NCBI GenBank assembly: GCA_951813045.1
Contig: CATOTF010000002.1
Span: 868,001 to 932,000, forward strand
Direction of reading: 5' to 3'
Origin: an uncultured Rhizobiaceae bacterium
GTDB taxonomy: Bacteria; Pseudomonadota; Alphaproteobacteria; Rhizobiales; Rhizobiaceae
DNA length: 64,000 nt
Below are positions 20,617 through 39,898 of the stretch, piece after piece (the first letter of the stretch is position 1; every line of letters begins with the position of its first letter). Below the pieces are notes generated by a model. That model saw only the letters and a program-made list of their open reading frames with translations. It was not told the origin of the DNA and searched no databases. The position numbers were made by a program, and so were the translations under genes.

Positions 20617-21132
20617 ATGAAGGATGATCTGTACGGGGCGCTTGTTACCTATGACGGAAAATCCGTTGGTGCTCTTCAGAAAATTGAATCCCGCTTTCGT
20701 GAATGTGTCGATTATCCAGAGGCACTGATCGAATTATTCGGCAATAAGACAGGGCATGTTTGTGAAGGAGCAACCTGGTTGTTTAAGTCGGCAGCCGAAT
20801 CCGGTTTGTTTATTCAGTCCAGTCAGCTGCTGATGTTCGTTTCAGCTGCCATGAGATGCTCCATTTGGAGTTCTCAATTACATATCTGCCAAACAGCCAT
20901 GTATTTGAATTTTGATGATATGGATTCTGTAGCTTTATCGGTTTGGCTTAAACCGTTGCTCACCCATGAGAGGCCGTTTTTACGAGCATGGGCGCTGGAT
21001 GCGCTGGTGACGCTTGCAGATCAGAATTCCGATCTGCGCGGGGATGCATTTACAGCGCTTGAACATGCCAGCCATGACCCTGTAGCTTCAGTTCAAGCAC
21101 GGGTTCGCAACCTTAGAAAATCCCGCTCTTAA
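20617..21132 (+). CDS. Hypothetical HEAT-like helical protein
   Basis: This 171-residue protein without a signal peptide has a repeat-like helical pattern. Examples are ALIELFGNKTGHVCEGATWLFKSA and RPFLRAWALDALVTLADQNS, ending LEHASHDPVASVQARVRNLRK. The latter two read as HEAT/PBS-type repeats, which usually make protein-binding scaffolds. No catalytic motif is visible. It is co-transcribed with the secreted protein upstream and ends tail-to-tail (4-bp overlap) with dnaE2. Confidence 0.65.
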   Translation: MKDDLYGALVTYDGKSVGALQKIESRFRECVDYPEALIELFGNKTGHVCEGATWLFKSAAESGLFIQSSQLLMFVSAAMRCSIWSSQLHICQTAMYLNFDDMDSVALSVWLKPLLTHERPFLRAWALDALVTLADQNSDLRGDAFTALEHASHDPVASVQARVRNLRKSRS

Positions 21133-24100
21133 TGAAAATCCCGGCTTTTCGGGATAACCCGCACGTTGCGAGGGTGTGTGCCGCGCGCTGGTACTGTAGG
21201 TCTTGGAGGTATGTTTTTTACCTGTCCGACCGGGCTCTTGTTCCAATGTTCTTCTGCATGTGAACCGATTGGGGATTTCACATGATCAGCATGGGCCACA
21301 ACCTCTGGCAGTTCATCATCGGAAAGCTGGTCGAGATCAGCGGTCAGGTCATCTAACCGATGGGCTATGATGTGAATCACGTCTCCGGCCCGTTGCATTT
21401 CACCGGTAATTTTGACCAATCGTGCACCCATGACAATTTTACGATGTTTTTCCATTACCTTCTTCCAGACGATTATATTGGCAACACCGGTTTCGTCTTC
21501 AATCGTTATGAAGACAACGCCTTTGGCGGTGCCGGGGCGCTGGCGCACCAGAACAACACCAGCAATGCTGCACCGTTGTTTCGATCGCATGTTGTACAGG
21601 TCTTTTGCGACAATCATGCCTTGCTTGCGATAGGTTTCACGCAGGAAGGAGAGGGGGTGCGCCTTGAGTGAGAGGCGATGGGTTTGATAATCCGTCACCA
21701 CATGTTCACTCTCGCGCATGGCGGGAAGGGAAACGAAGACGTCTTCGCCGGTGGAGCATTCGTCAACAGCGGCAAAGAGTGGTAATTGCACATCGCTCAT
21801 CAACCCGCGCACAGCCCACAGGGCTTCGCGACGATCCAACCCGATCGAGCGGAAAGCGTCATTAGATGCCAGCTTTTCCAGCACAGCGATGGTCAACGGT
21901 GTGCGGCGGCGGATGTGATCGAGACTGGTGAAAGAGCGGCACTGCGCGCGCGCTTTCACAAATTCATCCATCACCTCTTCGCGCAATCCATCGGCTTGGC
22001 GAAAGCCGAGGCGAACGGCGAATGTGCCGTCAAAGTTCTCTTCCAATGTGTTGTCCCAGTCAGAATGGTTTACATCAATCGGTCGTACTTCAATGCCGTG
22101 TTCTTTTGCATCACGGACAATCTGCGCCGGAGCGTAAAAACCCATCGGTTGCGCATTAAGAAGCCCGGCGCAAAAAGCATCGGGATAATGGCATTTGATC
22201 CAGGAGGAAATGTAGACCAGCAGGGCAAAACTGGCCGCGTGGCTCTCCGGAAAACCGTATTTACCAAACCCTTTGATTTGCTCAAAACAACGGCGGGAAA
22301 AATCCGGATCGTATCCACGATCAATCATCTGTCCGACCATTTTATCCTGTAACGTATGGATGGTCCCGGACCGGCGAAATGTCGCCATGGCCTTGCGCAA
22401 AAGATTGGCTTCTTCGGGGGTAAAATGGGCGGCATCAATTGCGATTTGCATGGCCTGTTCCTGAAACAGGGGAACACCGAGCGTTCGGCCCAGAATATTG
22501 CGCAATTCATCAGGGTCGGCAGGCGGGGCGGGGGAGGGGTAATTGATCGTTTCCAACCCGTCGCGCCGGCGCAGATAAGGGTGCACCATGTCGCCCTGAA
22601 TGGGGCCAGGGCGAACGATTGCCACCTGTATGACGAGGTCGTAAAATTTGGCCGGTTTTAATCGCGGCAACATGCTCATCTGCGCCCGGCTTTCCACCTG
22701 AAAAGTGCCCAGAGAATCGCCCCGTTGCAACATCTCGTAAGTCACAGGGTCCTCGCGCGGCAGGTTAGCGAGATGATAATCCTGCCGGTAATGGGTGCGG
22801 ATGAGATCAAAACATTTGCGAATACAAGTTAACATGCCAAGCGCCAGCACATCGACCTTCATGATCCGTAATTCGTCGATATCGTCCTTGTCCCATTCAA
22901 TGAAAGTGCGATCAGCCATGGCTGCATTGCCGATGGGTACGGTTTCAACCAAAGCGTCTTCGGTCAGCACAAACCCGCCAACGTGTTGGGAAAGGTGGCG
23001 CGGAAAACCGAGCAATTCCTGAGTCAATTCGATCACCCGCGCCAGGTGCGGGTCGGTGAGGTCAAGCCCGGCCTGTTTGATTTGATCTTGCGGGATACCT
23101 TTCCCCCATGAGCCCCAAACAGTGGAAGCGAGAGCCGTTGTCACATCCTCCGTCAGCCCCATGACCTTGCCCACCTCGCGCACGGCGGAACGGGGGCGGT
23201 AGGTGATAATGGTGGCAGCAATCGCCGCCCGGTGACGGCCGTAACGCCGGTAAACATATTGGATTACCTCTTCGCGGCGTTCGTGCTCAAAATCCACGTC
23301 AATATCAGGCGGTTCCTTTCGTTCTTCGGATAGAAAACGCTCAAACAGAAGATTGATTTTGGAAGGGTCGACAGCGGTCACCCCAAGGCAATAACAAATG
23401 GCCGAGTTCGCCGCCGACCCGCGCCCCTGGCACAGGATATCCTCGTCGCGTGCATAGACGACAATGTCATGGACGGTGAGAAAATATTGCGCGTAACCGA
23501 GGTGCTCGATGAGGGTGAGTTCTTTCAAAATTGTTTCGCGCACGGATTGAGGCAGGCCATCGGGGTAGAATTTCTTCGCCCCTTGCCAGGTTAAATCTGT
23601 CAAATGTTGCTGTGCCGTTTTGCCCGGCGGGACTGGTTCATTTGGATAATGGTAAGACAATTCGTCAAGCGAAAATCGGCACCGGTCCGCAATCTTCTGC
23701 GTGGCGGCGATGGCCTGCGGATAGGCAGCAAAAAGCCGACCCATTTCCAGCGGTGTTTTGAGATGCCGTTCAGCATTTTGCGCGAGCTTGAAACCGGCAG
23801 TCGCGAGCGTACATTTTTCGCGAATGCAGGTAATGACATCCTGTAACGGACGGCGGGCCGGGTCATGATAATGCACATCATTTGTGGCAACCAATGGTAC
23901 GTTGCACCGTTTTGAAAGGGCGTCTAACTCGTTTAACCGCCGTCGATCATCTCCTTGATAAAGCACGTAAGCTGCGATCCATATATTTCCAGGTGACCTC
24001 TGATTCAACTTCTTGATAGAGAGTTCGAAACCGTTGATTTGACTCCCGTTTTCAGCTTTTTCTTTGATGGCCTGTAGTTGAATCAGATTATTAACGCGGG

Positions 24101-24683
24101 TTTGTTTTTTGCCTTTGGAAGCTGGTTTTTCTTCGACTTCCGCTAACCCGTTTTCAGGCGGTAATGCGATAACAATCTGCCCTTCAAGAACTTCCAAAAT
24201 GTCTTCGAACCACAAGTGACATTCGCCTTTTTGTGCCCGCATTTTACCCTTGCTTAAGAGGGCACAAAGCCTGCCCCATGCGGCGCGGTCCGTTGGATAA
24301 ATCAGGCAGGAAAACCCGGGCAGTGCATTTTGAAAATTGCTTTCTGACAGTTTCTCGTTGCGCCCGTCTTTACTGCGCGGTGAAAAGCCGTTGGGCACGG
24401 TGTCGATACGCGCGCCAACCAGAAGTCGCATGTCTTCTTCTTTGGCCGCCGCGTGGGCGCGCACAACCCCGGCGACCGTATTGCGGTCGGCAATCCCGAT
24501 TGCGTTTATCCCGATGGCTTTTGCTGTGGCGACGAGTTCTGCCGGATGCGAGCCACCACGTAGAAAGGAAAAGTTGGAAGCGCATTGCAACTCTGCATAA
24601 GGGGCTGCATCTGCTGGAGGAGGAACAGGCTTTGTATTCGGTCGTTTGAACGGAATGGGCGGGTTTTCAGATGGACGAGACAT
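21129..24683 (-). CDS. dnaE2: Error-prone DNA polymerase III alpha subunit DnaE2 (ImuC)
   Basis: This 1184-residue polymerase has an N-terminal PHP domain (YAELQCASNFSFLRGGSHPAEL). The C-family polymerase core includes CQGRGSAANSAICYCLG and PDIDVDFEHERREEVIQY, with the catalytic Asp pair. A C-terminal OB-fold follows (VFITIEDETGVANIIVW). It performs translesion synthesis together with ImuA and ImuB, not replication. It is the last gene of the SOS cassette and is separated from the DUF559 gene by about 200 bp of hairpin repeats. That gap is unusual because imuB and dnaE2 are commonly adjacent. Confidence 0.95.
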   Translation of the reverse strand: MSRPSENPPIPFKRPNTKPVPPPADAAPYAELQCASNFSFLRGGSHPAELVATAKAIGINAIGIADRNTVAGVVRAHAAAKEEDMRLLVGARIDTVPNGFSPRSKDGRNEKLSESNFQNALPGFSCLIYPTDRAAWGRLCALLSKGKMRAQKGECHLWFEDILEVLEGQIVIALPPENGLAEVEEKPASKGKKQTRVNNLIQLQAIKEKAENGSQINGFELSIKKLNQRSPGNIWIAAYVLYQGDDRRRLNELDALSKRCNVPLVATNDVHYHDPARRPLQDVITCIREKCTLATAGFKLAQNAERHLKTPLEMGRLFAAYPQAIAATQKIADRCRFSLDELSYHYPNEPVPPGKTAQQHLTDLTWQGAKKFYPDGLPQSVRETILKELTLIEHLGYAQYFLTVHDIVVYARDEDILCQGRGSAANSAICYCLGVTAVDPSKINLLFERFLSEERKEPPDIDVDFEHERREEVIQYVYRRYGRHRAAIAATIITYRPRSAVREVGKVMGLTEDVTTALASTVWGSWGKGIPQDQIKQAGLDLTDPHLARVIELTQELLGFPRHLSQHVGGFVLTEDALVETVPIGNAAMADRTFIEWDKDDIDELRIMKVDVLALGMLTCIRKCFDLIRTHYRQDYHLANLPREDPVTYEMLQRGDSLGTFQVESRAQMSMLPRLKPAKFYDLVIQVAIVRPGPIQGDMVHPYLRRRDGLETINYPSPAPPADPDELRNILGRTLGVPLFQEQAMQIAIDAAHFTPEEANLLRKAMATFRRSGTIHTLQDKMVGQMIDRGYDPDFSRRCFEQIKGFGKYGFPESHAASFALLVYISSWIKCHYPDAFCAGLLNAQPMGFYAPAQIVRDAKEHGIEVRPIDVNHSDWDNTLEENFDGTFAVRLGFRQADGLREEVMDEFVKARAQCRSFTSLDHIRRRTPLTIAVLEKLASNDAFRSIGLDRREALWAVRGLMSDVQLPLFAAVDECSTGEDVFVSLPAMRESEHVVTDYQTHRLSLKAHPLSFLRETYRKQGMIVAKDLYNMRSKQRCSIAGVVLVRQRPGTAKGVVFITIEDETGVANIIVWKKVMEKHRKIVMGARLVKITGEMQRAGDVIHIIAHRLDDLTADLDQLSDDELPEVVAHADHVKSPIGSHAEEHWNKSPVGQVKNIPPRPTVPARGTHPRNVRVIPKSRDFH

Positions 24684-24884: not shown

Positions 24885-25247
24885 TCACAACCACTTTTCT
24901 ACTTCAGCTTCGCCGACTGCTTTTAATATTTGCAGGCACACATCATCTAAAGACATCAAAACCTCACTGTTCCAAAACCTTAGAACTATAAAGCCTTGTG
25001 CCACTAACCAGACATCTCGTTTTCTGTCGTAAGCATTGTCGCCGTGTTGCTCTCCATCAGCCTCTACGACCAACCTTTTCTCGTAACAGATAAAATCGAC
25101 GATGTAGTTTCCGATGACTTCTTGTCTTTTGAATTTAAGGTCGCCTAGTTTACGGCCACGTAATTGCGCCCATAGGGTAGCTTCTGCGTCTGTTTGGTTT
25201 CGGCGCATTTCTTTACTGAAATGTTGTAATCTTTGAGGTCTCCTCAT
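24885..25247 (-). CDS. DUF559 endonuclease-like protein
   Basis: This 120-residue protein matches the DUF559 pattern of PD-(D/E)XK-like small nucleases. It has KEMRRNQTDAEATLWAQLRG, KFKRQEVIGNYIVDFICYEKRLVVEADGEQH (core D...ExD residues), DVWLVAQGFIVLRFWNSEVL and a helical end. The fold is related to Vsr-type endonucleases. It overlaps the imuB stop by 4 bp (ATGA), so it is translated from the mutasome mRNA. A functional link to SOS mutagenesis is inference; alternatively it is a passenger that travels with the hairpin repeats beside it. Confidence 0.85.
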   Translation of the reverse strand: MRRPQRLQHFSKEMRRNQTDAEATLWAQLRGRKLGDLKFKRQEVIGNYIVDFICYEKRLVVEADGEQHGDNAYDRKRDVWLVAQGFIVLRFWNSEVLMSLDDVCLQILKAVGEAEVEKWL

Positions 25248-26866
25248 ATCCCGAAAACCCCGTGCACGAACCAGCCCGGTTGTGAGGCACCACCATAAAG
25301 ACCTTCGCGGAAGAGCCAGTAACGGCGGCCTTGGGTGTCTTCGACTTCATAATAATCGCGTATGGCAGTGCCGCGCGGGCCTTCGCGCCACCATTCAGGG
25401 GCGATACGCTCCGGGCCACGGGCGCGGATGATCTGCCGGGGTATCCGTCGCCACCGAAAATTAAGAGGCGGTCCATCAGGCACTTGCGCGGTGACCTCAG
25501 TCGCCTCCGGCGTATCAAACAAGCGGAAAGGGCGTGGCACGCTGCGGAAAGCCGTTTCCGTTTCGACCTCCTGCCACGCAAGGGCCTGCGCGCCTGTTGA
25601 GGCGGCATTGGCCATATGCCATGCCCGTTCGGGAATATGGCTTTTAATCGGCACCGCATAGGTCACATTACGCTCACCGAACCTGTTGGAAAGCCGGTCT
25701 ACAAGCCCTGAAAGTTCAACGGCAAGAGCTTCATTTGCCGCCTGATTATCAGCCACGAGTGTTGCCTGTTGCACAGCAATGACATCGCAATCAGCGGCCT
25801 CCAACAGGAAACCATCAATACCGTAACCGGGGTCGATCTGGTCCAGCTTTTCGTCAAACAACCGCATCACATGGATGCTGTCCCGCGACGGGCGCGAAAG
25901 GCGGATGGAAACGCCGGAAGAACCGCCATCGCTGTGAAACGCGGTAAGCCGCCACCCCTGCGCCCCTTGTGCCGCTACTTCCATGCGAGTGGAAAGGCGG
26001 GCAAATAATTCCCCAAGCGCGAACTGAATGCCGGTAATGTCCAATACAGGTTCCGCGCATGGCATATGTGCCCGCCATGGAGCGGGAGGGCGCAAGGGTT
26101 TTATCGGTTCATGCAGTGCGCCGTTAAACTGATCGACCCGCATTTGAACCGACCGGGCATCAATTTTAGCTCGGAAACGCCGTTCAAGCGCTTGACGGGG
26201 CACGCGTATAACACTGTGCACAGTTTTAAGCCCCAATCGCCGTAAAAGCAGATTGCGTTCATCACTGAGACGCAGTGCTTCCACCGGCAGATGCCCGGCC
26301 AGGTGCAGGGCTTCTTCTTGTGTTGTGGCGATATCAGATCCGCTGCCGTAATGGCTCAATGCATGGGCCGCGCCGGGGGTGGGGGCCACGGCAGCATGGG
26401 CTGTAAATCCCATGGCCCCAAGGCGTCGCAGGCAGTCACGCATCATATTAGCCTCACCATCAAACAGGTGGTCGCACCCTGTTGTATCGATCAGCAGGCC
26501 GAAATCTTTCACAATATCATGGGGCGCGGCGCTATCATCCATCGCGGTGATGGGGGAATAGCGCGCGGCCCACAGGACAAGCCTTTCCAGCATATCGTCA
26601 TCGGCTTCCGGGCAAGCCTGTTCGGCGGTCAATAACGGACAGACTGCCCGGGCATCCGTCAGCATTTGCCCCACACGGGCTCCCGATTGCTGAGCAAGGG
26701 CGCTAACCGCCGTAATACGGGTTCCGCGCACCCCGTGGTCCACCAGAACGAGAGGGTTTTCGGCATCCGATTCAAGGTGCGTCGCGAAACGCGCCATATT
26801 CTGTTTCTGGCGCAAGTGACGTTCCAGAGCGAAATGGGGAAACCAGATTGAAAGTATGCGTCTCAT
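25244..26866 (-). CDS. imuB: ImuB, Y-family polymerase-like mutasome protein
   Basis: This protein of about 540 residues begins MRRILSIWFPHFALERHLRQ, the usual start of ImuB, and has the Y-family HhH-like DERNLLLRRLGLKTVHSVIRV region. ImuB proteins lack the catalytic acids of active Y polymerases and act as the hub linking DnaE2, ImuA and the beta clamp. The open frame extends 71 codons further upstream. The ATG at 26866 is preferred because it gives the family N-terminus. The start lies 95 bp inside imuA, an unusually large overlap. Confidence 0.92.
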   Translation of the reverse strand: MRRILSIWFPHFALERHLRQKQNMARFATHLESDAENPLVLVDHGVRGTRITAVSALAQQSGARVGQMLTDARAVCPLLTAEQACPEADDDMLERLVLWAARYSPITAMDDSAAPHDIVKDFGLLIDTTGCDHLFDGEANMMRDCLRRLGAMGFTAHAAVAPTPGAAHALSHYGSGSDIATTQEEALHLAGHLPVEALRLSDERNLLLRRLGLKTVHSVIRVPRQALERRFRAKIDARSVQMRVDQFNGALHEPIKPLRPPAPWRAHMPCAEPVLDITGIQFALGELFARLSTRMEVAAQGAQGWRLTAFHSDGGSSGVSIRLSRPSRDSIHVMRLFDEKLDQIDPGYGIDGFLLEAADCDVIAVQQATLVADNQAANEALAVELSGLVDRLSNRFGERNVTYAVPIKSHIPERAWHMANAASTGAQALAWQEVETETAFRSVPRPFRLFDTPEATEVTAQVPDGPPLNFRWRRIPRQIIRARGPERIAPEWWREGPRGTAIRDYYEVEDTQGRRYWLFREGLYGGASQPGWFVHGVFGI

Positions 26867-27578
26867 CGGTCCAGGTAACTTCCAGCGGTTTGGCAAGGGT
26901 TGGGTTGAGGGCGGTATTGCCACCACGGGCACGGGCAAGGGTGACAGCCCAGGCGGCAAAGCCGGGACCTTGTGGGTCTCGTGCATCCGGTGGCCCGGTA
27001 ATGGGCGCAATGCGCCAGCGTGTGCATGCTGCTGACGCGCCAATCGTACCGGAGGTGTTGAGAATGAGGCAGGGCACATGGCTTTCTTGCGCGGCCAGTG
27101 TCAGCCGCCGTGATGCGGTGAAATCCGGTGCCGCCCCTTCACCGATAACTGCAGCAATACGGGGCACCCGTACACATTCTTCAAGCACCAGCGCCAGATC
27201 GCGTTCTTTAGGGACATTAACAAATAAAAACTGTTCTGGAGGTACGCGACTACCGATAAGGCCGGGGGCATAGACACGCCCATATTCGCGCGCATTATAG
27301 GCCGTTTGGCACCACACAATTGGTCCTCGTTGTAGTCTTTGTGGCGGCAAGCGTTGTAAAAGTGCCGCAATAAACCCGGCGACTTGTGGTACGTCTGTTT
27401 TGAGTTCAGGGGTAAAATCATGGCAGGCGTCGTAAGCCAGGCTCTGCGCGGGCAGGGCGTTATCGAGTTCTTCCAGACCCAGTGTCCATAAACCGACCCG
27501 TGGTTCATCAGCCGCGATAAATCGTTTGGTACGCCCTTCAATATTCTCAATTTTCGCCTTCAGCTCATCCAGAACCAT
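26772..27578 (-). CDS. imuA: ImuA, RecA-like mutasome protein
   Basis: This protein of about 268 residues has a degenerate RecA/SulA-like fold: VGLWTLGLEELDNALPAQSLAYDACHDFTP, then PIVWCQTAYNAREYGRVYAPGL and LALVLEECVRVPRIAAVIGE. ImuA is required for DnaE2-dependent mutagenesis. The frame opens at 27647, but that start touches the LexA box. The ATG at 27578 has GGAG upstream and is preferred. It is the first gene of the cassette and carries the SOS operator. Confidence 0.88.
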   Translation of the reverse strand: MVLDELKAKIENIEGRTKRFIAADEPRVGLWTLGLEELDNALPAQSLAYDACHDFTPELKTDVPQVAGFIAALLQRLPPQRLQRGPIVWCQTAYNAREYGRVYAPGLIGSRVPPEQFLFVNVPKERDLALVLEECVRVPRIAAVIGEGAAPDFTASRRLTLAAQESHVPCLILNTSGTIGASAACTRWRIAPITGPPDARDPQGPGFAAWAVTLARARGGNTALNPTLAKPLEVTWTDETHTFNLVSPFRSGTSLAPETEYGAFRDAP

Positions 27579-27645
27579 GCCTGTCTCCAACTCAAAACCC
27601 TTGCCTGAAAAGGCAAAGCCTGTGTAACCGCAAAACTCCTCAGGC

Positions 27646-27673
27646 ATATGTTCCTATTTTGTTCTCATTCAAG
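27646..27673 (-). promoter_or_regulatory. LexA operator and promoter of imuA-imuB-DUF559-dnaE2
   Basis: GTTC-N7-GTTC (GTTC at 27650-27653 and 27661-27664) is the direct-repeat LexA box of alphaproteobacteria. Read on the minus strand, TTGAAT resembles a -35 and CATATG a -10, with the box between them, so LexA would block RNA polymerase. The 28-bp stretch is nearly identical to the one at 33551-33578. Confidence 0.85.
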
Positions 27674-28200
27674 AGTCAAATATTCCTACGGGATAAGAAT
27701 TGAGAGGTGGACGGATGCTTGAAGGCCTCCAGTGAGGTCCTGCATCGGTTGGGTCGTTCTTATAAGGTCAGGGTTTTGATCTAGGCGGCGTTTTACCATG
27801 GGCTTCATCTTTTATTTGATGAACTGCGTACACGTTGAAATGACATCCACAACGCGCTTTAAATAACCGCTCAAGAAGTTGTGATAATCAGCCCAAAAGT
27901 CAAAGACATCAGATTGTTCCGGCTCCCAGGAAGTCAACCAGCACATTCAACTTAACTATATAAGTGGTTAGAAGAACACGGTTTCCCAAAAAAATATTTG
28001 CTCAATTTCGGAGCTATAGGAGTTTCTCAAAACCCTCATAACACGCTGTTAATACTAACTAATATTAATGATTAACAGGTGATTAAATTGCACGAGGTTT
28101 GGCATGATGGAACGCTGGCAAACGATATCATGCGAATAATACCAGCCAATGAACTGGTTTATGAGCGTTCCCGACTGCGATGAAACCCACAGGTGAAACT
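27674..28200. other. Intergenic region between imuA and the RTX-like gene
   Basis: There is no credible gene in these 527 bases. They are AT-rich toward the right. The only recognisable site is TTAA-N7-TTAA at 28072-28086, listed separately. A ribosome site AGGTGA precedes the ATG at 28201. Confidence 0.6.
28072..28086 (+). promoter_or_regulatory. CtrA-like site TTAA-N7-TTAA
   Basis: TTAA at 28072-28075 and TTAA at 28083-28086 are separated by exactly 7 bases, matching the CtrA consensus except that the last base is A not C. It lies 114 bp before the ATG of the repeat protein. AT-rich sequence raises the chance of a random match. Confidence 0.4.
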
Positions 28201-28599
28201 ATGCCCAGTTCAAAAGCCCCGACTACAAAATCAGCAACAACAAAAACTGTTAAAGACGTTATCGCGCCAGTACCAACTCCAGCACCAGTGCTGCCTACAC
28301 CAGTTCCTGCCGCCGACATCATTGTCGGTACGACTCAGCTCGTTGATCCAGGTGTTGGCACTACGGCTCCCGGCATCCCTGTACAGGTGGGGGTGAACCC
28401 CGGTGATAATCTTGACATTAATATCGTCAATGCTGGTTCCATACAGGGGCGGGGTCAGGCACCTGCAACAGATCCGCTTGCAGGGGACGGTATTCGACTG
28501 TTCCCCGGCGCTGCTGGCGTTTCTTTCAGTGGTGACATTGTCAACAAAGGTAGTATTGCTTCGGAAAGTACCCAGGCCCAACAGCGGGTGTTCGCATAG
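28201..28599 (+). CDS. N-terminal fragment of RTX-like repeat protein (frameshifted)
   Basis: This 132-codon fragment starts with MPSSKAPTTKSATTKTV, then a Pro-rich linker (PVPTPAPVLPTPVPAADI), then the first repeat with QGRGQAPATDPLAGDGIRLF and GDIVNKGSIASESTQ. There is no Sec signal, as expected for a type I-secreted protein. It ends at a premature TAG after AQQRVFA. Compared with later repeat copies one G is missing from the GGGCCC at about 28575. The restored frame continues directly into the 28608 frame, so the two are one gene. The ATG at 28201 has AGGTGA upstream; 28180 is an alternative. Confidence 0.75.
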   Translation: MPSSKAPTTKSATTKTVKDVIAPVPTPAPVLPTPVPAADIIVGTTQLVDPGVGTTAPGIPVQVGVNPGDNLDINIVNAGSIQGRGQAPATDPLAGDGIRLFPGAAGVSFSGDIVNKGSIASESTQAQQRVFA

Positions 28600-30760
28600 C
28601 AAATGGCGTGTCCTTTACCGGTAATGTCCACAACACCGCTACAGGCACAATTTCGGGTGCCAATAACGGATTGTATTTCGGAACGGGAAATCATGACACA
28701 AGAGTTGCAAATGAAGGTACGATCTCAAGTGACAGCCGTGCGGTAAATATCGACGGAAACGGTGTAACGTTTAACAACTTTGGCAAGGTGCTTGGTACAG
28801 GAGACCAACGGAATGGCACCGTATACGCCGATGCAACCGCCGATAAGTATGAAGTCAACAATTTCAGACAAGGCGTCATCGACGCGGGCGCTGGTAATGA
28901 TGGCGCGGGTATCGCACTGCAAACAGGAGAAGTTGTTGGTGATACCGTAACCGCTAGCGTGTTCAATGCTGGTACCGTACAGGGGCGTGGACAAGCAGCA
29001 GCCAATGTTGGCCAAGCAGGAGATGGTCTGCGCATTTTCCCCGGCGTTGAGGGTGGCACGACCTTCCAGGGTAATATTGTCAATGATGGAACGTTTGCAT
29101 CTGAAAGCACGCAAGGCCCAACAGCGGGTGTGCGTATTGCAAATGGAGTTGGGTTTGACGGCGCGGTCGTCAACAATTCCGGGGCCACAATTTCAGGAGC
29201 CAACAACGGCCTGTATTTTGGAACCGGTGATCACGACGCCGAAGTGTTGAACTTCGGTACAATTTCCAGCGACAGCCGCGCCGTCAATATTGATGGAACC
29301 GGCGTTAACGTGAATAATTTCGGATCTATTCTCGGAACTGGTGACCAGCGTAACGGTACCGTTTATGCAGACGGAACAGCAGATAAATATGAAGTGAACA
29401 ATTTCAAAGGCGGCGTGATTGATGCAGGTGTCGGCAATAATGGTGCTGGAGTCGCCCTGCAAACCGGTGATGCGGCTGGAGACGTAGTAACAGCCCACGT
29501 TTTCAATGGTGGTACTATACAGGGCCGCGGTCAGGCCGCAGCCAATGTTGGCGAAGCTGGTGATGGCCTGCGCATTTTTGCAGGTGACCCGGGCGGTACA
29601 ACCTTCCGGGGTGACATTGTCAATGAAGGGTCTTTTGCCTCCGAAAGCACACAGGGAACCACCGCCGGTATTCGGGTTGCAAATGGTGTTTCCTTTGAAG
29701 GCAACGTTGTCAATAACGCCGCAGGCACTATTTCCGGCGCTAACAACGGACTGTATTTTGGGACCGGAAGCCATGATGCCGTTGTAACCAACCTTGGCAC
29801 CATTTCCAGTGACAGCCGTGCGTTGAATATTGATGGAACGGGTGTCATTTCCAATAATTTTGGCAATATACTCGGCACCGGGGATCAAAGAATCGGCACG
29901 ATTTATGCAGATGGAACCGCCGATAAATATGAAGTCAACAACTTCAAAACCGGCGTTGTTGACGCCGGGGTTGGCAATGATGGCGCAGGTATCGCCCTAC
30001 AAACCGGTGATTCAGCCGGTGATACGGTGACGGCGAGTGTGTTTAATCTGGGCACTGTACAGGGCCGGGGACAGGCAACTGCCAATGTTGGTGAAGCCGG
30101 TGATGGCCTGCGCATCTTTGCAGGAGACGCCGGCGGAACAACGTTTCAGGGCAATGTCATCAACGACGGTTCATTTTCTTCTGAAAGCACGCAGGGCCCA
30201 ACTGCCGGTGTGCGTGTAGCAAATGGCGTGTCGTTCGACGGTGCTGTCGTCAACAACTCTGACGGGGTCATTTCGGGCGCCAACAATGGGTTGTATTTTG
30301 GAACCGGCGATCACGACGCGGAAGTTCTGAACTTCGGCACAATCACCAGCGACAGTCGTGCGGTCAATATTGACGGTAACGGGGTTGAGTTTAATAACTT
30401 CGCATCCGTTTTGGGCACGGGCGACCAGCGCAATGGCACAACCTATGCCGATGCGACTGCCGACCAATATGAAGTCAATAATTTCAAAGGCGGCACTATC
30501 GACGCCGGTGTTGGCAACAATGGTGCCGGTGTGTCCTTGCAGACCGGCGATGTCGCTGGCGATGTGGTCACAGCCGATGTTTTTAATGCCGGTACTATTC
30601 AGGGTCGCGGTAGTGCCACGGCTGACCTGAATACGGCTGGGGACGGCCTGCGCATTTTCACAACGATTGAGGGCGGTGTTACCTTCAAAGGGGATATTGA
30701 AAACCTTGGTACAATCGCCGGGTCAGCAGATTCCGCCGAAGTTGCGGGCATCCGCATTGC
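28431..30760. repeat. Tandem 540-bp repeats inside the RTX-like gene
   Basis: The same landmark (codons for NNGLYFGTG) starts at 28662, 29202, 29742 and 30282, exactly 540 bp apart each time, giving four full units of 180 residues. A partial unit lies before 28662 (starting near QGRGQ) and a diverging one after about 30650. The exact spacing points to recent duplication or gene conversion. Confidence 0.92.
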
Positions 30761-31328
30761 CGACAATGTGACCTTCGCGGGTACAATCACCAATAAGGGC
30801 ACAATCTCCGGTACACAAAACTCAATTGATGCAAGCCAAGCCGAAGGTGGCGTGAAAGTCGTCAACGAAGATACTCTAATCGGCGATGTTGTCCTTTCAG
30901 AAGGAAATGACACTTTTGACGCCCGTTTCGGAACTGCACAGGGGCAAATCCTTGCGGGCGGTGGTGACGATGTCATCACCACGGGCGATACGGATGATGT
31001 GATTAACGCCGGCGCCGGAAACGATGTGATCACAACCGGAAGCGGTACCGATATGGTTACCACCGGGGCGGGGTCAGATATTCTGGTCGTTCAGCGTGAC
31101 GACAACGGTGTCATCACAATTACGGATTTCACCAACGGCGAAGACCGTATAGACCTGAGTGAATTCGGCCTGGCTGGCGGACCAAACCCGTTTACCGACA
31201 ATTTCAATGCCGCGGGCACATTGAACAACTCTGAAGTGACGATTGATGGGCTCCAGATTCTTCTGGACGGTTTCGGGCTTCAAGACCTTGATGAGACCGA
31301 CTTCATCTTTGAAGATGAGGTTGTCTAA
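28608..31328 (+). CDS. RTX-tailed repeat protein, main body (probable type I-secreted adhesin or S-layer-like protein)
   Basis: This open frame of 906 codons is the body of the gene broken at 28575. It consists of near-perfect 180-residue units with NNGLYFGTG, SSDSRAVNIDG, LGTGDQRNGT, DKYEVNNF, VGNNGAGVALQTGD, QGRGQA and GDGLRIF. These are beta-helix-like. The last about 130 residues are hemolysin-type calcium repeats (GGDDVITTGDTDDVINAG, GAGNDVITTGSG). The end, ITDFTNGEDRIDLSEFGL, is the type I secretion signal region. No ABC/HlyD exporter lies in the window. Function as a surface or biofilm protein is inference. Confidence 0.85.
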   Translation: MSFTGNVHNTATGTISGANNGLYFGTGNHDTRVANEGTISSDSRAVNIDGNGVTFNNFGKVLGTGDQRNGTVYADATADKYEVNNFRQGVIDAGAGNDGAGIALQTGEVVGDTVTASVFNAGTVQGRGQAAANVGQAGDGLRIFPGVEGGTTFQGNIVNDGTFASESTQGPTAGVRIANGVGFDGAVVNNSGATISGANNGLYFGTGDHDAEVLNFGTISSDSRAVNIDGTGVNVNNFGSILGTGDQRNGTVYADGTADKYEVNNFKGGVIDAGVGNNGAGVALQTGDAAGDVVTAHVFNGGTIQGRGQAAANVGEAGDGLRIFAGDPGGTTFRGDIVNEGSFASESTQGTTAGIRVANGVSFEGNVVNNAAGTISGANNGLYFGTGSHDAVVTNLGTISSDSRALNIDGTGVISNNFGNILGTGDQRIGTIYADGTADKYEVNNFKTGVVDAGVGNDGAGIALQTGDSAGDTVTASVFNLGTVQGRGQATANVGEAGDGLRIFAGDAGGTTFQGNVINDGSFSSESTQGPTAGVRVANGVSFDGAVVNNSDGVISGANNGLYFGTGDHDAEVLNFGTITSDSRAVNIDGNGVEFNNFASVLGTGDQRNGTTYADATADQYEVNNFKGGTIDAGVGNNGAGVSLQTGDVAGDVVTADVFNAGTIQGRGSATADLNTAGDGLRIFTTIEGGVTFKGDIENLGTIAGSADSAEVAGIRIADNVTFAGTITNKGTISGTQNSIDASQAEGGVKVVNEDTLIGDVVLSEGNDTFDARFGTAQGQILAGGGDDVITTGDTDDVINAGAGNDVITTGSGTDMVTTGAGSDILVVQRDDNGVITITDFTNGEDRIDLSEFGLAGGPNPFTDNFNAAGTLNNSEVTIDGLQILLDGFGLQDLDETDFIFEDEVV

Positions 31329-31407
31329 AGCATATTAAAACGAACAGAGTGCCACTGGACGCCGAATATACCGCACCTGAATTGGTACCCAACTTGCTCT
31401 GTCCGGT

Positions 31408-31448
31408 GCCGCCATGTTGAATTCTCGATGTGGCGGCGCATGGTTTTT
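31408..31448 (+). terminator. Probable terminator after the RTX-like gene
   Basis: GCCGCCA and TGGCGGC form a 7-bp stem (31408-31437) with a 16-base loop, followed after 6 bases by a run of five T. It is a plausible but weak rho-independent terminator 80 bp after the stop. Confidence 0.5.
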
Positions 31449-31458
31449 AAACGTACGA

Positions 31459-33156
31459 TCAATCTTGAATAAAACGTCTTGATCGTCTGCATCTTTTCCC
31501 GTAACCACGGCGGCGGAGAGGTGGCCGAGTGGTCGAAGGCGCGCCCCTGCTAAGGGCGTAGGCGAGGAATCGTCTCGAGGGTTCGAATCCCTTCCTCTCC
31601 GCCATTTTACACTTTCCCATGTTGATATCTCCTAAGATGTTGAAAGGTATGGTGGTTTTTGGGGTTCGAAGCCCTTGTTTTCGACAGTAGGCCAAAGGGG
31701 CGTCGAAGGCGAGTTTTAGGACTGTTCTTTTGTCTTCGAGGCGGGTGGAAGCCCATAGTTTCCAGGGGTTTGCGAGGAATGTGAGGGCGAGTTCGAACAT
31801 TTCCTCGAATGTGCGCTGTGGGGTGGTGCCATTCTCGAGTTTTTCAGCCTTTATGAGCTTGTCTTTTTCCAGTCTTGCAATGCGGCGTTCATAGGCTGTG
31901 ATGGCGGTGTTTGATTCCGCATCGACGATTTTATCCATGAGATTATCAATCTGCTTGTCGAGTTTGAGAATATCCCGGCGCAGGGTCTTTTTCAGATCGT
32001 TGAGACTGGCAAGGCGTAATTCCCATTCCCGTTTGAAGATGATCCTGAGATAGTTGAACAGGGTCCCACTGGGTTTCATCTGTTTGAGGAGGGTTTCAAA
32101 TTCGCCTTCAAGTGCATCGCGCTTGATGGACTTGCGATAGCTGTCACAGGTTTTGGTGAAGCACATGTAATAGGGATGCTTCGTACCCGTCTTTGATTTG
32201 GAGAAGCAGGACGTCATGGGATTGTTGCAATCGCCACAGGTGATAAAACCGCGAAGGGGGAATTCAGCATTGATATCCTTGCGGGCAGGAACCCTTGCCC
32301 CTTCCTTGATGCGTTGTTGAATGCGCTCAAAATTCTCAAGGCTAATCAGCCCTTCGTGATGGCCTTTGCGCAGGGATATGTTCCATGCGGGGTATTCGAT
32401 GGTGCCGGAATAGATATGGCGTGTCAGAAGCCGGACAACATCCTCATAACGAACTGTGCGCCCTTTCTTCCATCCAACAAAGTCAGGTTCGCTTTCCAGA
32501 TAACGTTTGACCTCCGCCTGAGTTTCAAAACGGCCGGTGGCAAAGCCTTCCAGAGCGACCTGTATAATACTGGCTATAGGTTCATTGCGAACAAGCAGAT
32601 TGCCATGACTGGGGTGTTTTTCGAACTTGTAACCAAGGGGTGCTGCAAAACACCAATAGCCACCCGTCAGACGTGCCCACATACGGTTTTTGGAGGTTTC
32701 CGCAATCTTGCGGCGGGCATGTTCTGCATTAAGGGCCTGCATGCCCTCAAAATAACGCCCGTCTGAATCCTGCCGGAAGTCCATATTGGGACTGTCCATC
32801 TGTGCACCCGTATCAAAGATCGCATCACGCAGATCCAGATAGGCACGGATATCACGGGCCAATCGGCTGATGTCATCAAAGACAACAACATAATCCTGCG
32901 GGACTTTGCTGCGTTTGAGGAATTGTATGAGCTCCTTGATACCGGGGCGGTCAATCAGCTTTCCTGATATGGCCCGGTCGTAGAAGACCCGTTCAACGTC
33001 CACACCCTTGTAGCTGCAATATTCGCGGCATCTCGTTTCCTGCGAACGAAGCCCATCACCTTTACGGGCTTGGGCTTCAGAGGAGATACGACAGTAGACC
33101 AGAGCTATTGTCGCCTGCTGATCGTTTCGCATATTATCTCCGTATCCATTCATCAT
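31459..33156 (-). CDS. Large serine recombinase (integrase of the tRNA-Ser element)
   Basis: This 565-codon frame has a resolvase domain with the catalytic serine in LVYCRISSEAQ and VFDDISRLAR. Then come a recombinase domain (TGGYWCFAAPLGYKFEKH), a zinc ribbon (CGDCNN...CFTKTCDSY) and a coiled coil before the end. The last about 45 residues (MAERKGFEPSRRFLAYALS onward) are the antisense reading of tRNA-Ser. The protein's own end was probably different before integration. Its start overlaps the upstream 114-residue ORF by 4 bp. It likely integrates and excises the 31.6-41 kb element. Confidence 0.9.
   Translation of the reverse strand: MMNGYGDNMRNDQQATIALVYCRISSEAQARKGDGLRSQETRCREYCSYKGVDVERVFYDRAISGKLIDRPGIKELIQFLKRSKVPQDYVVVFDDISRLARDIRAYLDLRDAIFDTGAQMDSPNMDFRQDSDGRYFEGMQALNAEHARRKIAETSKNRMWARLTGGYWCFAAPLGYKFEKHPSHGNLLVRNEPIASIIQVALEGFATGRFETQAEVKRYLESEPDFVGWKKGRTVRYEDVVRLLTRHIYSGTIEYPAWNISLRKGHHEGLISLENFERIQQRIKEGARVPARKDINAEFPLRGFITCGDCNNPMTSCFSKSKTGTKHPYYMCFTKTCDSYRKSIKRDALEGEFETLLKQMKPSGTLFNYLRIIFKREWELRLASLNDLKKTLRRDILKLDKQIDNLMDKIVDAESNTAITAYERRIARLEKDKLIKAEKLENGTTPQRTFEEMFELALTFLANPWKLWASTRLEDKRTVLKLAFDAPLAYCRKQGLRTPKTTIPFNILGDINMGKCKMAERKGFEPSRRFLAYALSRGAPSTTRPPLRRRGYGKRCRRSRRFIQD
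31515..31604 (+). tRNA. tRNA-Ser (anticodon GCU)
   Basis: This is a complete 90-nt class II tRNA. The acceptor stem GGAGAGG (31515-31521) pairs with CCTCTCC (31594-31600), followed by G and an encoded CCA. The anticodon stem CGCCC (31542-31546) pairs with GGGCG (31554-31558) around the GCT anticodon at 31549-31551. The long variable arm GGCGAGGAATCGTCTC and T-loop GGTTCGAATCC are present. The serine recombinase frame on the other strand runs right through it, so the 3' end is the likely attachment site of the element to the right. Confidence 0.95.
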
Positions 33157-33497
33157 AGATCATCCCTTTCTGGATGGTTCTCCTTTTCAAATTCAATCTG
33201 TAGTGGCGGCGTTTCTCGTTCGTCCAATTGAACCCGTTTGTTATCTTGAGCCAATTTCCCGGATTGCCGCATGGCAAGTTGCACGGGGTGAACGCCAAAC
33301 CCGATATCTATAAAGTTGAGCACAATCGTGCCGATGAGTTCAATCAAATCCCGTTTGCGGTCTTCACAAACCTCGGGATCATCGATGACACTCTGGTAGT
33401 AATCGACATCAATTCCGACTGATGGGCGGTGTAACGCAGCTTGTTGTATTTGTAACTCAGTAGTTCCTTTGTCTGTTTCAATATCTGTTGTGTCCAA
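33153..33497 (-). CDS. Hypothetical protein upstream of the recombinase
   Basis: This 114-residue acidic protein is not recognised. It contains GIDVDYYQSVIDDPEVCEDRKRDLIELIGTIVLNFIDIGFGVHPVQLA, a helical stretch, and a charged tail. The start is a TTG at 33497 with AGGAAAACAGG just upstream. It overlaps the recombinase by 4 bp and lies directly downstream of the LexA-type operator. It could therefore be co-induced with the recombinase, for instance as a directionality factor; that role is a guess. Confidence 0.6.
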   Translation of the reverse strand: MDTTDIETDKGTTELQIQQAALHRPSVGIDVDYYQSVIDDPEVCEDRKRDLIELIGTIVLNFIDIGFGVHPVQLAMRQSGKLAQDNKRVQLDERETPPLQIEFEKENHPERDDL

Positions 33498-33550
33498 TTC
33501 CTGTTTTCCTTGTCTTTTTGTTATTGATTATCCATTCATATCTCCCTTTT

Positions 33551-33590
33551 CTTGAATGAGAACAAAAGTAGAACATATACTTTGTTCTCA
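33551..33590. promoter_or_regulatory. LexA-type operator of the mobile element
   Basis: GAAC-N7-GAAC (33560-33563 and 33571-33574) is the reverse complement form of the alphaproteobacterial LexA box. The surrounding TGAGAACAAA...TTTGTTCTCA (33558 to 33590) is a near-perfect long palindrome. Bases 33551-33578 match the imuA operator in 25 of 28 positions. It lies about 60 bp upstream of the TTG start at 33497, so it would put the recombinase under SOS control. Confidence 0.75.
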
Positions 33591-33618
33591 CGCAAGAATT
33601 TTCTACTTGGGAGGGAGG

Positions 33619-34083
33619 TTATCGCTGATGCGAAGGTGCTGGGGTTTGGAGACTGTCATCACCATTTGAGGGACGGCGGGTCTGTCTGAACGCCTCACGG
33701 TCATGCATGTGCAATTGATCCGATTGTTGATCTTGCTGTTGGCCCAGTTGCTGGGTTTGCGACTGTGATTGTTCCAGAGCAAGTTGACGTTTGAGTTGAT
33801 TGATCACGCCATAGGTCTCACGTCCCAATTCAGCCACACGCAGCAGGTCCGATTGAGAGAAGTTCTGAGTGTCTTTGGGATTGCCCCGTTCATCGGAATA
33901 GGTTTTGGCCATTGAAGTTGTGAAGTAAGGGCCTTTGTCCCCTTCATTGCGCCATACGGTGGCTTTCAAACTGCCATCCCTGATGACCATTTCGGGCCTG
34001 TTGTTGCTTTTGGTATTCTGGTTAGGGCTTTGGCCTGTGTTCTGGCCTGTGTTCGGGTTTGTGTTCTGAGTATTATCCATCAT
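33619..34083 (-). CDS. Hypothetical element protein (Gln/Asn-rich)
   Basis: This 154-residue protein has a low-complexity Asn/Gln start, a compact centre (VIRDGSLKATVWRNEGDKG, PYFTTSMAKTYSDERGNPKD, FSQSDLLRVAELGRETYGVI) and a Gln-rich tail. The centre looks like a small folded domain seen beside coupling-protein genes, but I cannot name it. The frame opens at 34134. The ATG at 34083 has AAAGGAGA upstream and is preferred. Confidence 0.65.
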   Translation of the reverse strand: MMDNTQNTNPNTGQNTGQSPNQNTKSNNRPEMVIRDGSLKATVWRNEGDKGPYFTTSMAKTYSDERGNPKDTQNFSQSDLLRVAELGRETYGVINQLKRQLALEQSQSQTQQLGQQQDQQSDQLHMHDREAFRQTRRPSNGDDSLQTPAPSHQR

Positions 34084-34130
34084 GTCTCCTTTGTTGATGG
34101 GTGGGGGTAAACTTGTGCAATCGGGGGTGA

Positions 34131-34490
34131 TCAATCGTTCAACGATTGCCGAAAGGCTTGCGATTTGGACAGGGATTGTTGCGTTGTGGCTTGCACACGC
34201 CGCATCAACTTGAAAGCTTCACGACTGACACTATCCCGTGTTTTACCGACGGCAGGGGCTGTAATTCTGGCAGCATTGACCCTCTCATCGTCAAGAGTGC
34301 GCTTGGAATCCAGCAACTGATCCTTGATGGCTCTTCCTTGCGCCAACTTGTTGGCAACGCGGGCCTGACGGTGTTGGTGATGTTCGCGGTGCTCACGGTG
34401 CAGTTCCTGATAGTGGCTTTGTGCCTTGGGGCCGTGCGACAGCGCGGGGGATGGCTTTAACTCCGGATGTGGCTTTTGTCGTTGCACCAT
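34131..34490 (-). CDS. Hypothetical basic protein
   Basis: This 119-residue strongly basic, His/Gln-rich protein (SHYQELHREHREHHQHRQARV), mostly helical by composition, includes LLDSKRTLDDERVNAARITAP. No family was recognised. The charge suggests nucleic-acid contact. It lies between two other small genes of the element; an accessory mobilisation role is only a guess. Confidence 0.5.
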   Translation of the reverse strand: MVQRQKPHPELKPSPALSHGPKAQSHYQELHREHREHHQHRQARVANKLAQGRAIKDQLLDSKRTLDDERVNAARITAPAVGKTRDSVSREAFKLMRRVQATTQQSLSKSQAFRQSLND

Positions 34491-34756: not shown

Positions 34757-36355
34757 TTACGTTTTGACGCGCGACCAATACCCATCTGCGTATTGCGGGA
34801 ATTGGGCGTATTGTTCGGGAACTGGTTCGTTGATGACCCTGCGCCAAGCGTGCCCCCAGAATGTCTTAACACGCACTTTGTCCAGCGGCGGGTGATATGG
34901 ATTGGGATGGTATCGCCAGGCCATCCAGCGTTGCTCGTAATAGGGCTTGCGGTCTAAATAAGCGGGCTTTGACAATCGGTCTGTGAAGAACACCATCTTG
35001 TTGGATGGTATATGGAGAACTTCGTTGGGCTCCATCATGTTACGTTTCATTTGGCGGGGACGATCAGCATCACGCTTGTGATGGGCATAATTGATCACCG
35101 AGTTCATCGGATCATCGCCGTTCATCATCGCAACCACGGCCTGACGACGGGCATGTCCGGCCTGTGCAACCTGGACTTCATCGTGATAGTCCAGCGTCTG
35201 CGACCCAATCATTTTGGAAAGCGTGGTGGCGGTTTCCAAATCACGGACACCAAAATAGCTGCGCAATTCCGCTGATGAGGTAATGATGTTCTCTGCGTTC
35301 TCGCCAATGGCCGCCATTTGTTTGGTTGACTGAAAGACAGCAACCGGGCGGGCACCAATGCCTGCCCCATAGGTAAAGGCCTTGATAAGAAGCGGGAACG
35401 CACCCAATTGTGCACATTCATCCAAGAACCAAGTCTGCTGCGGGCTTTGGGGATTACGGGATTTATGAACAAACAGGGCGACGAAGATGGATTTGATAAT
35501 CGGTGACCAGCCATCGACAAATTCCGCCGGTGGCATCAATGACAGTTGCACGGGTTGTGTCTGCGAACACATGTCCGCCAGATCAAAGTCAAAGGGTGGT
35601 GAGACGGACTCAAGCAGGCGTTCATCGCTGAGACAGGCAAAGCCTTTGAACAGCACGCCCAGAATACCGGTAAACCCGCCCGTTGGATCATCCCTCGAAT
35701 TAGCTATTTCTTCTTCAATGCGTTTGGAAATGGGAAAGCCGGAGACTGACATCTCATAGGCGAAGTCGAGCCATTCATCGGTATTGCCCGGTATCAGGTT
35801 TACGATCTCATACAGGCGCGGAAGGGTCAGTACCCCGCTCAACTTTACCTCTTTACGGATAATCCCTTCCAGAAACTCCTGCGCCCGTCTGTCAAAATAT
35901 TCAGAATTATGGGCCTTCGATATCGGCAGGAAGTTCTGACAAAACATCTTCACATCAGAGGACAGGTTTAAATTGTCTATGGTGATATAACCAACCGGGT
36001 TGATACGGTGGCATCCAAGCCCGTGGAGAAAGGCGGGGTTCCACATAACAATGAACTTGTTATCAGCGGTCTGATCCTGGCCGATATAAGTGCCTTCACC
36101 TTTCAAATCCAGCAGAACACATGAGGGCGTATAGATACCGGCGCAGATATTATAGGCCAGCAAATCGCGCAGTTTACCGGAACGAGCTCCAGCGCAAATG
36201 AGCCAGCCACCAGCACCGGAATACCAGAGCGGTTTTTTGCCCCAGAATCCAACCAGCAGGGAATTATCCTGCTGATCGAACATGCCTGCTTTCTTCAGAT
36301 CGCGATAAGATGCAGCGGTGGCTGATCCAAAACGGACCTCACTGTTATCAATCAT
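34757..36355 (-). CDS. VirD4/TraG-type conjugative coupling protein
   Basis: This 532-residue ATPase couples a DNA substrate to a type IV secretion channel. A Walker A-like loop ICAGARSGKLRDLLAYN lies near residue 55, followed by PSCVLLDLKGEGTY (TraG/VirD4 signature). Walker B is QTWFLDECAQLGAFPLLIKA, and VAVFQSTKQMAAIGENAENII follows. The usual N-terminal transmembrane pair is not seen, so it may be a soluble TraG-like form or rely on the small membrane proteins encoded upstream. No relaxase or VirB gene is present nearby. Confidence 0.88.
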   Translation of the reverse strand: MIDNSEVRFGSATAASYRDLKKAGMFDQQDNSLLVGFWGKKPLWYSGAGGWLICAGARSGKLRDLLAYNICAGIYTPSCVLLDLKGEGTYIGQDQTADNKFIVMWNPAFLHGLGCHRINPVGYITIDNLNLSSDVKMFCQNFLPISKAHNSEYFDRRAQEFLEGIIRKEVKLSGVLTLPRLYEIVNLIPGNTDEWLDFAYEMSVSGFPISKRIEEEIANSRDDPTGGFTGILGVLFKGFACLSDERLLESVSPPFDFDLADMCSQTQPVQLSLMPPAEFVDGWSPIIKSIFVALFVHKSRNPQSPQQTWFLDECAQLGAFPLLIKAFTYGAGIGARPVAVFQSTKQMAAIGENAENIITSSAELRSYFGVRDLETATTLSKMIGSQTLDYHDEVQVAQAGHARRQAVVAMMNGDDPMNSVINYAHHKRDADRPRQMKRNMMEPNEVLHIPSNKMVFFTDRLSKPAYLDRKPYYEQRWMAWRYHPNPYHPPLDKVRVKTFWGHAWRRVINEPVPEQYAQFPQYADGYWSRVKT

Positions 36356-39657: not shown

Positions 39658-39898
39658 AGCGGTGCGTATTGCGCTGACCAGCGGACTTACCCGGAAACAA
39701 GTGGCATCAGATTTGGGGGTCGGCTTTTCGACGTTATCGAAATGGATACAACAATCCCGGCCTGATGACCTTCCACCATCGGTTGATATTGATCTGGCCA
39801 AAGAGAATGAGCGGCTTCGCAGAGAGGTTCGTCTCCTCACGGAGGAGAGGGAGATATTAAAGAAGGCAACAGTGTTCTTCGCGGGTCAAAGCAAGTGA
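39623..39898 (+). CDS. IS3-family transposase OrfA
   Basis: The 91-residue protein has an N-terminal HTH (HTDEFKREAVRIALTSGLTRKQVASDLGVGFSTLSKWI). A leucine-zipper segment (ENERLRREVRLLTEEREILKKATVFF) follows, the standard OrfA design. It ends TGA at 39896-39898, overlapping OrfB by 4 bp in the -1 frame. OrfA binds the inverted repeats, and a -1 frameshift would make the OrfAB transposase. Confidence 0.92.
   Translation: MARGHTDEFKREAVRIALTSGLTRKQVASDLGVGFSTLSKWIQQSRPDDLPPSVDIDLAKENERLRREVRLLTEEREILKKATVFFAGQSK

Follow-up and report, generated by a model that had tools for sequence, protein, structure and literature searches.

A predicted LexA operator, most likely inherited, precedes the serine recombinase operon of an element integrated at a tRNA-Ser gene

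The element, its predicted operator and the neighbouring imuA gene

A 64,000-nucleotide stretch of DNA from an uncultured Rhizobiaceae bacterium (assembly GCA_951813045.1, contig CATOTF010000002.1, positions 868,001 to 932,000; hereafter the window) contains an element integrated at a tRNA-Ser gene, close to the host genes imuA, imuB and dnaE2. The recombinase operon of the element and the imuA gene are each preceded by a 28-base site that resembles the operators of the SOS repressor LexA, and we propose that the site at the element is probably an inherited switch through which the host LexA controls the recombinase operon. The features that bear most directly on this proposal are as follows.

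33551..33578, core GTTC-N7-GTTC at 33560-33574, minus (operon strand): predicted SOS (LexA) operator of the element, from its sequence, its conservation in the family and a matrix score of 29.1
33551..33596, no strand assigned: imperfect palindrome containing the operator, with a third half-site, GTTC at 33584-33587 (plus), seen by eye
33153..33497, minus: small gene S1, 114 amino acids, the first gene after the operator, with a homologue in 42 of 44 loci
31459..33156, minus: large serine recombinase, 565 amino acids, no internal stop (Resolvase E 6.7e-25; zinc ribbon E 4.6e-9)
31515..31604, plus: tRNA-Ser (GCT), target of the element, the same tRNA in 5 of 6 stretches from the genus
27646..27673, core 27650-27664, minus: predicted host SOS operator of imuA and, by layout, also of imuB and dnaE2, from its sequence and its conservation in the genus
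26772..27647, minus: imuA, an open frame of 291 amino acids as listed, named by its position before a Y-family polymerase and DnaE2

The recombinase has the N-terminal Resolvase domain, the recombinase/zinc-ribbon part and the length (about 500 amino acids) of the large serine recombinases, with a zinc ribbon that scores above its cut-off and a Pfam Recombinase domain at 21.0 bits, just below the cut-off of 21.1. S1 overlaps the recombinase start by 4 bases and the operator core lies about 60 bases before the listed S1 frame, while on the plus strand the next frame longer than 104 amino acids after the site starts only at 37674.

Direct comparison of 27646-27673 (minus) with 33551-33578 (plus) gives identity at 25 of 28 bases, and the three mismatched bases are contiguous and lie within the N7 spacer, just as the initial annotation of this DNA had described; it was also right that the imuA coding strand carries the GAAC form of the site and the recombinase operon strand the GTTC form. 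Both sites contain the direct repeat GTTC-N7-GTTC (hereafter the box) and share an extended motif with several host SOS genes, and in these respects they do resemble alphaproteobacterial LexA operators. GTTC-N7-GTTC is the operator of the Caulobacter SOS regulon (table 1 of PMC9578287), which is thus of the same type as that of the host genes and the element here, although the account of the regulon given there describes no serine-recombinase element.

The bare pattern is weak evidence, as GAAC-N7-GAAC has 3 matches in the window against 2.0 expected. A fuller motif, TGAGAACAAAANNNGAACATA, is found with at most one mismatch at only three places in the 4.84-Mb genome, namely imuA, the element and C2:3635886, which is a paralogous recombinase locus. 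At up to three mismatches it is found at 11 places against 4 for the reversed control, and GAAC-N7-GAACA occurs 42 times genome-wide against 15 for its reversed control. It had been feared that the shared sequence might be a common intergenic motif, and the rarity of TGAGAACAAAANNNGAACATA in the genome answers that objection. The near-chance number of GAAC-N7-GAAC matches in the window would fit a chance origin of both sites, but the genome-wide rarity of the fuller motif and the conservation of the sites at both genes make such an origin extremely improbable, and we reject it. A separate sequence, GAACGTGAAGTGAAC, is repeated letter for letter at at least 13 places in this genome and raises the raw GAAC-N7-GAAC counts; it probably belongs to a repeat or an insertion sequence.

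Host SOS genes

Further candidate LexA boxes in this genome are found before lexA (PF01726 plus Peptidase_S24), between ssb and uvrA, before recA (where one half-site is GTAC) and before a DNA polymerase III alpha gene, and a search of the genome for the LexA DNA-binding domain gives one match. When scored with a weight matrix trained on 25 element relatives, with the window left out, the operator of the element (29.1) stands beside the boxes of imuA (28.3), ssb/uvrA (30.5) and recA (18.7), and the imuA boxes across the host genus score between 24.8 and 28.3. In L015 (1658-1710) a tandem pair of LexA-type boxes precedes a gene for DNA polymerase III alpha that matches the PHP domain over its full length; such boxes at the main replicative polymerase would be unusual.

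The imuA box, GAACAAARTARGAACATA, is kept in 10 of the 11 genus genomes with an imuA match, and the eleventh has a different box. The imuA frame matches no Pfam family, and its orthologues are 64-76% identical in four genus genomes and 39-43% identical in six more. Five genus relatives (L116-L120) keep the box and lack an ATG corresponding to 27647, so that the box is not tied to this ATG, and the true start of imuA probably lies downstream of it.

The operator across the recombinase family

A single scan of genome contigs with the window recombinase yielded 51 loci, of which the first 43 (L060-L102) together with the window form the set of 44 analysed here, eight partial loci (L103-L110) being omitted. 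Among the 36 loci with at least 1300 bp upstream, the box is present on the operon strand upstream of the recombinase operon in 25 and on the opposite strand in none, whereas a Markov control gives a mean of 0.4 loci and a largest value of 4 in 300 resamples; it is also present in 3 of the 7 loci with shorter upstream sequence. Within the 47,321 upstream bases of the 43 loci, GAAC-N7-GAACA occurs 26 times on that strand and never on the other, as compared with 4 times in 434,690 bases elsewhere, and the reversed motif occurs 0 and 2 times upstream and once elsewhere. A sample drawn later comprises 27 loci, and 23 have at least 1200 bases upstream; the box is present on the operon strand in 12 of these 23 and on the opposite strand in 1 of 23 (control mean 0.45, largest 3). 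Removal of two loci identical to earlier ones (L150, without the box, and L151, with it) changes the count to 11 of 21, and a further locus with 1152 upstream bases, L158, also has the box. Finally, 6 of 15 additional stretches from numbered genomes have the box, one of the six being a broken paralogue in the window's own genome. This second recombinase of the same family (C2:3633853-3635386; L020, L136) lies in two pieces in different frames at a tRNA-Leu(CAG), with the LexA-type box at C2:3635886 about 500 bases before it.

The box mostly stands shortly before the first gene of a run that may be S1-recombinase, S3-S1-recombinase or F22-S1-recombinase. As these runs vary, the box tracks the operon and not a fixed distance from the recombinase; homologues of S1 itself, present in 42 of 44 loci, lie a median of 383 bases ahead of the recombinase match. 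Matrix scoring of the eleven boxless loci among the 36 reveals near-boxes in L070 (19.4) and L095 (19.6), and the operon strand of the other nine yields nothing above 7.1. The sisters L124 and L125 differ in that one retains both half-sites whereas the other has one of them decayed.

The records are mostly named Alphaproteobacteria, with a few metagenome assemblies labelled, as deposited, Bacteroidetes, Gamma- or Deltaproteobacteria or Planctomycetaceae. Both the recombinase and the box are present in the assemblies of two cultured relatives, Pseudooceanicola batsensis (L083) and Stappia stellulata (L060). One gammaproteobacterial relative, L091, was considered as a possible carrier of CTG-N10-CAG in place of GTTC-N7-GTTC, and no such motif was found there. 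Relatives of the recombinase at E up to 1e-60 are carried by 57 of 397 genomes sampled from the order of the host (the host included), and the family is therefore not rare. Plasmid relatives number 41 records; 2 of these span 80% or more of the query, with 23% identity, and one plasmid record has a partial match at 60-80% identity. A scan of viral contigs with the recombinase, which reaches close relatives only, found none, and we do not regard the element as a virus.

Inheritance or capture from imuA

The initial annotation proposed that the recombinase operon is under SOS control and that the element had captured or copied the promoter of imuA. The first part of this interpretation stands, as the sites are LexA-like and the operon is probably SOS-controlled; the second does not, since the box lies on the operon strand in many relatives and on both sides of the midpoint of the recombinase tree. 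Copying from the imuA promoter of this host would account for the window pair being the closest, at 25 matches against a mean of 17.7, of 420 element-by-imuA pairs (35 elements by 12 imuA rows, two of which are one gene). This closeness arises because the left flank matches at 9 of 9 positions. Within the core 19 bases, the two window sites agree at 16, some elements from other genera match imuA at least as well (up to 18 of 19, L082), and the similarity fades beyond the 28 bases, to 28 of 48 when the comparison is extended by 10 on each side. Moreover, relatives in other genera and families have the same box in the same place and on the same strand, the TTGACTC found upstream of the imuA box in the nearest genus members is absent at the element, and the imuA of the nearest relatives (L112-L115) has CTTA or CTCA rather than CTTG. 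We therefore reject capture, which we judge very unlikely, on the basis of the family-wide conservation, the imuA flank, the tree and the 420-pair comparison. As to the left flank itself, the recA and ssb/uvrA boxes too have AATGA ahead of GAAC, and the other arm of the element's palindrome likewise starts with CTTG; the data do not distinguish chance from a local exchange of a few bases as its source.

The proximity of the two boxes has a simpler explanation. In the relative G001 the imuA box lies about 75 bases from tRNA-Ser(GCT) in alignment coordinates; this tRNA is thus an old neighbour of imuA, and by entering it the element brought its own box next to that of imuA. Because the same site occurs in the same place in many related elements, the element most likely inherited its site as a switch of its own instead of copying it from the adjacent imuA.

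Besides the closeness of the window pair, several observations weigh against this reading and against control by LexA. A quick tree of 59 recombinases (LG+G4) has 35 rows with the box, 20 without and 4 that are unscorable, so that 20 of 55 scorable rows lack a strict box. Presence of the box needs at least 14 changes on this tree, which is not clearly fewer than when the labels are shuffled (mean 16.4; 65 of the 500 shuffles need as few) and implies that the box has often been lost or gained; with labels hardly more clustered than by chance, common descent of every box is not demonstrated. As the window's own recombinase served as the query for every relative, the sample is biased towards its kin, and some of the loci are closely related among themselves. 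The box of the host lexA gene scores only 12.3 with the element matrix, a value that some unassigned sites in the genome equal or exceed (up to 22.9). A promoter scan of the site region gives no good consensus promoter on the minus strand near the operator, and the sole promoter-like match near the site is on the plus strand, where 0.7 such matches are expected by chance. By eye only, a TTG can be seen about 20-30 bases upstream of the box in many relatives. The tree suggests that the box is an old feature that has often been lost or regained, and does not indicate a single recent capture.

The palindrome at the element site

The site at the element was also noted earlier to be embedded in a longer palindrome, and this is so, although the palindrome (33551-33596) is imperfect; its arms, CTTGAATGAGAACAAA and TTTGTTCTCACGCAAG, pair at 14 of 16 positions when counted by eye. 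With its three half-sites this 46-bp sequence could be bound by a repressor other than LexA, for instance an element-coded regulator, the likeness to LexA sites being incidental, and inverted repeats round the box do occur in a few relatives, most strongly in L093 and L067. However, the family does not generally have inverted repeats whose two arms both lie outside the box (mean best score 5.7 against 5.3 when shuffled; the test scored arms outside the box only, and the window arms overlap the box), and the extended motif equals that of several host SOS genes. We regard another repressor as improbable. A palindrome round the box, tried as a feature of the family, is on average unsupported for arms outside the box, and only L093, L067 and a few others have one.

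Upstream of S1 in L093 the box is enclosed by an inverted repeat with 18-base arms and two mismatches, and in L067 it lies within one with 11-base arms and one mismatch; neither resembles the palindrome of the window in sequence.

S1 and the direction of recombination

S1 has no family match in Pfam or NCBIfam. Its predicted fold consists of three helices and has low confidence (mean pLDDT 67.7), and a comparison of this model with the PDB gives no match at E 0.001, a result that is uninformative on function. From its position and its presence across the family, S1 is a candidate excision (directionality) or partner factor.

As a rule, serine recombinases need a directionality factor to excise and without it only integrate. 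It is possible, though we think it unlikely, that LexA binds the operator and that recombinase made after damage integrates incoming copies, whose entering single-stranded DNA induces SOS, with excision controlled in some other manner. Incoming mobile DNA can indeed induce SOS (PMC9578287, PMC9927553), and S1 has only a candidate role in excision. Against integration as the outcome, S1 lies, by layout, in the same operon as the recombinase and is nearly always present, and the partner should therefore be made simultaneously.

On balance we consider it quite probable that an inherited LexA operator controls the S1-recombinase operon and that damage, by derepressing it, leads to excision of the element. 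The element at tRNA-Ser(GCT) would belong to a family, found mostly in Alphaproteobacteria, whose integrated members encode a large serine recombinase. In the undamaged cell, host LexA bound at 33560-33574 would repress the S1-recombinase operon. Upon DNA damage RecA would be activated and LexA would cleave itself, so that S1 and the recombinase, presumably co-transcribed, would be produced together, S1 being the best candidate for the factor that lets the serine recombinase excise rather than merely integrate. The element would then leave the tRNA while imuA-imuB-dnaE2 are induced via their own, independently conserved LexA operator.

The recombinase frame in the target tRNA

In 47 of 51 loci with a called tRNA (the window, 31459-31604, plus loci among L060-L102 and L124-L138), the recombinase frame enters the antisense strand of the target tRNA in one fixed phase. 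The last codons of the window recombinase are accordingly read from the antisense strand of tRNA-Ser. This tail, coded by the acceptor and T arms of the tRNA, is in most loci like MAERxGFEP, with a motif like TPxxxxPFxxL about 20 residues earlier, and the targets among the 47 loci include Ser, Arg, Leu, Met and Phe tRNAs. As to the four exceptions, L101 and L136 are frame-shifted, L138 carries stop codons ahead of the tRNA and in L091 the tRNA is not adjacent. A comparable overlap is found in phage Mx8.

If, as expected, crossover takes place in the tRNA, the recombinase gene contains the attachment site, and excision and circularisation should alter the tail. This raises the speculative and rather doubtful idea of two coupled switches, in which host LexA would time the operon and the attachment site in the recombinase 3' end would swap the tail between an integrated form (from the tRNA) and a circular form (from the element's other end); damage would then yield S1 and an integrated-form recombinase set for excision, and the circular form would be set for integration.

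Other genes of the element and its surroundings

Further genes of the element and of the host SOS cluster are listed below.

33619..34134, minus: small gene S3, 171 amino acids, upstream of the operator here and downstream of it in some relatives, present in 26 of 44 loci
34757..36355, minus: VirD4/TraG-like coupling ATPase (T4SS-DNA_transf E 2.2e-28), the same family in 17 of 44 loci
25244..27079, minus: imuB-type Y-family polymerase (IMS domain E 4.8e-5), imuB by context
21129..24683, minus: dnaE2-type polymerase (DNA_pol3_alpha E 4.6e-90), dnaE2 by context

The combination of an integrase with a transfer gene, here the recombinase and the VirD4-like ATPase, would place the element among the integrative mobilizable or conjugative elements. 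Another ATPase family, F11, occurs in 10 of 44 loci, and one of its members, in L089, is VirD4-like. A profile search recognised no relaxase among the window frames tested, and no second copy of the tRNA 3' end was found in the window. The right end of the element was not found; a 5.65-kb flank of the tRNA-Ser site from a relative has no match in the window's own genome, and such an empty outcome is uninformative.

Beyond the coupling-protein genes are a small resolvase (38992-39657) and an IS3-type transposase (39895-40752; rve, HTH_21), and the genes at 38992-40752 possibly mark the edge of the element or are nested insertions. Between imuA and tRNA-Ser lies a repetitive protein gene (28180-31328) listed as two frames, 28180-28599 and 28608-31328; in G001 the alignable imuA promoter and the tRNA are about 60 bases apart at this position.

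Comparison with known systems

We know of no name for this large alphaproteobacterial element family. The best NCBIfam match of the window recombinase is CcrB (E 5.8e-24), at 84.6 bits against a cut-off of 900, and with this score and a target of tRNA-Ser rather than rlmH the element is not an SCCmec-type cassette; to our knowledge neither an S1 nor a coupling ATPase is found in SCCmec. Integron integrases are tyrosine recombinases that shuffle cassettes, and the whole element is not excised.

Control of mobile elements by LexA is well known from integrons, cassettes, islands and phages (PMC9578287), and the alphaproteobacterial serine-recombinase family would, by inference, be a further instance. 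The nearest in kind are the ccr serine recombinase genes of SCCmec, which LexA reportedly represses (Liu et al. 2017, as cited in PMC9728531 and PMC9578287), although PMC9728531 itself reports no significant ccr induction under its conditions. As is proposed for the window element, SCCmec is described as an integrated element with serine recombinase genes under host LexA (PMC9728531, PMC9578287), and by analogy the window element would work similarly; SCCmec differs in belonging to another phylum, in its LexA motif (table 1 of PMC9578287) and in its rlmH target. The integron integrase, which is under LexA (Guerin et al. 2009, as cited in PMC9578287), has an SOS box on its promoter (PMC9578287), as is proposed for the recombinase of the element. 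SGI1, too, is integrated and mobilizable and has a LexA site, which has been examined by gel shift and reporter assay, but the examined site is at the activators sgaDC, has the motif CTG-N10-CAG and functions in gammaproteobacterial hosts (PMC9927553). In SXT/R391, too, DNA damage leads to transfer, whereas the switch described is the element-coded repressor SetR and not host LexA directly (PMC9578287). Integrative mobilizable and conjugative elements of Mesorhizobium are also alphaproteobacterial and integrated at tRNA genes (PMC8627217); no SOS control is described for them, the term SOS having no occurrence in the main text of PMC8627217. The titles and abstract openings found describe no LexA control in this recombinase family, with the subscription literature sparsely covered by them and absence from print not shown.

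A working switch of the kind proposed would mean that, in Alphaproteobacteria, damage to DNA sets these elements moving just as the host is increasing its own mutation rate. S1 is a testable candidate for the missing excision factor, and the conserved operator is well suited to a direct reporter test.

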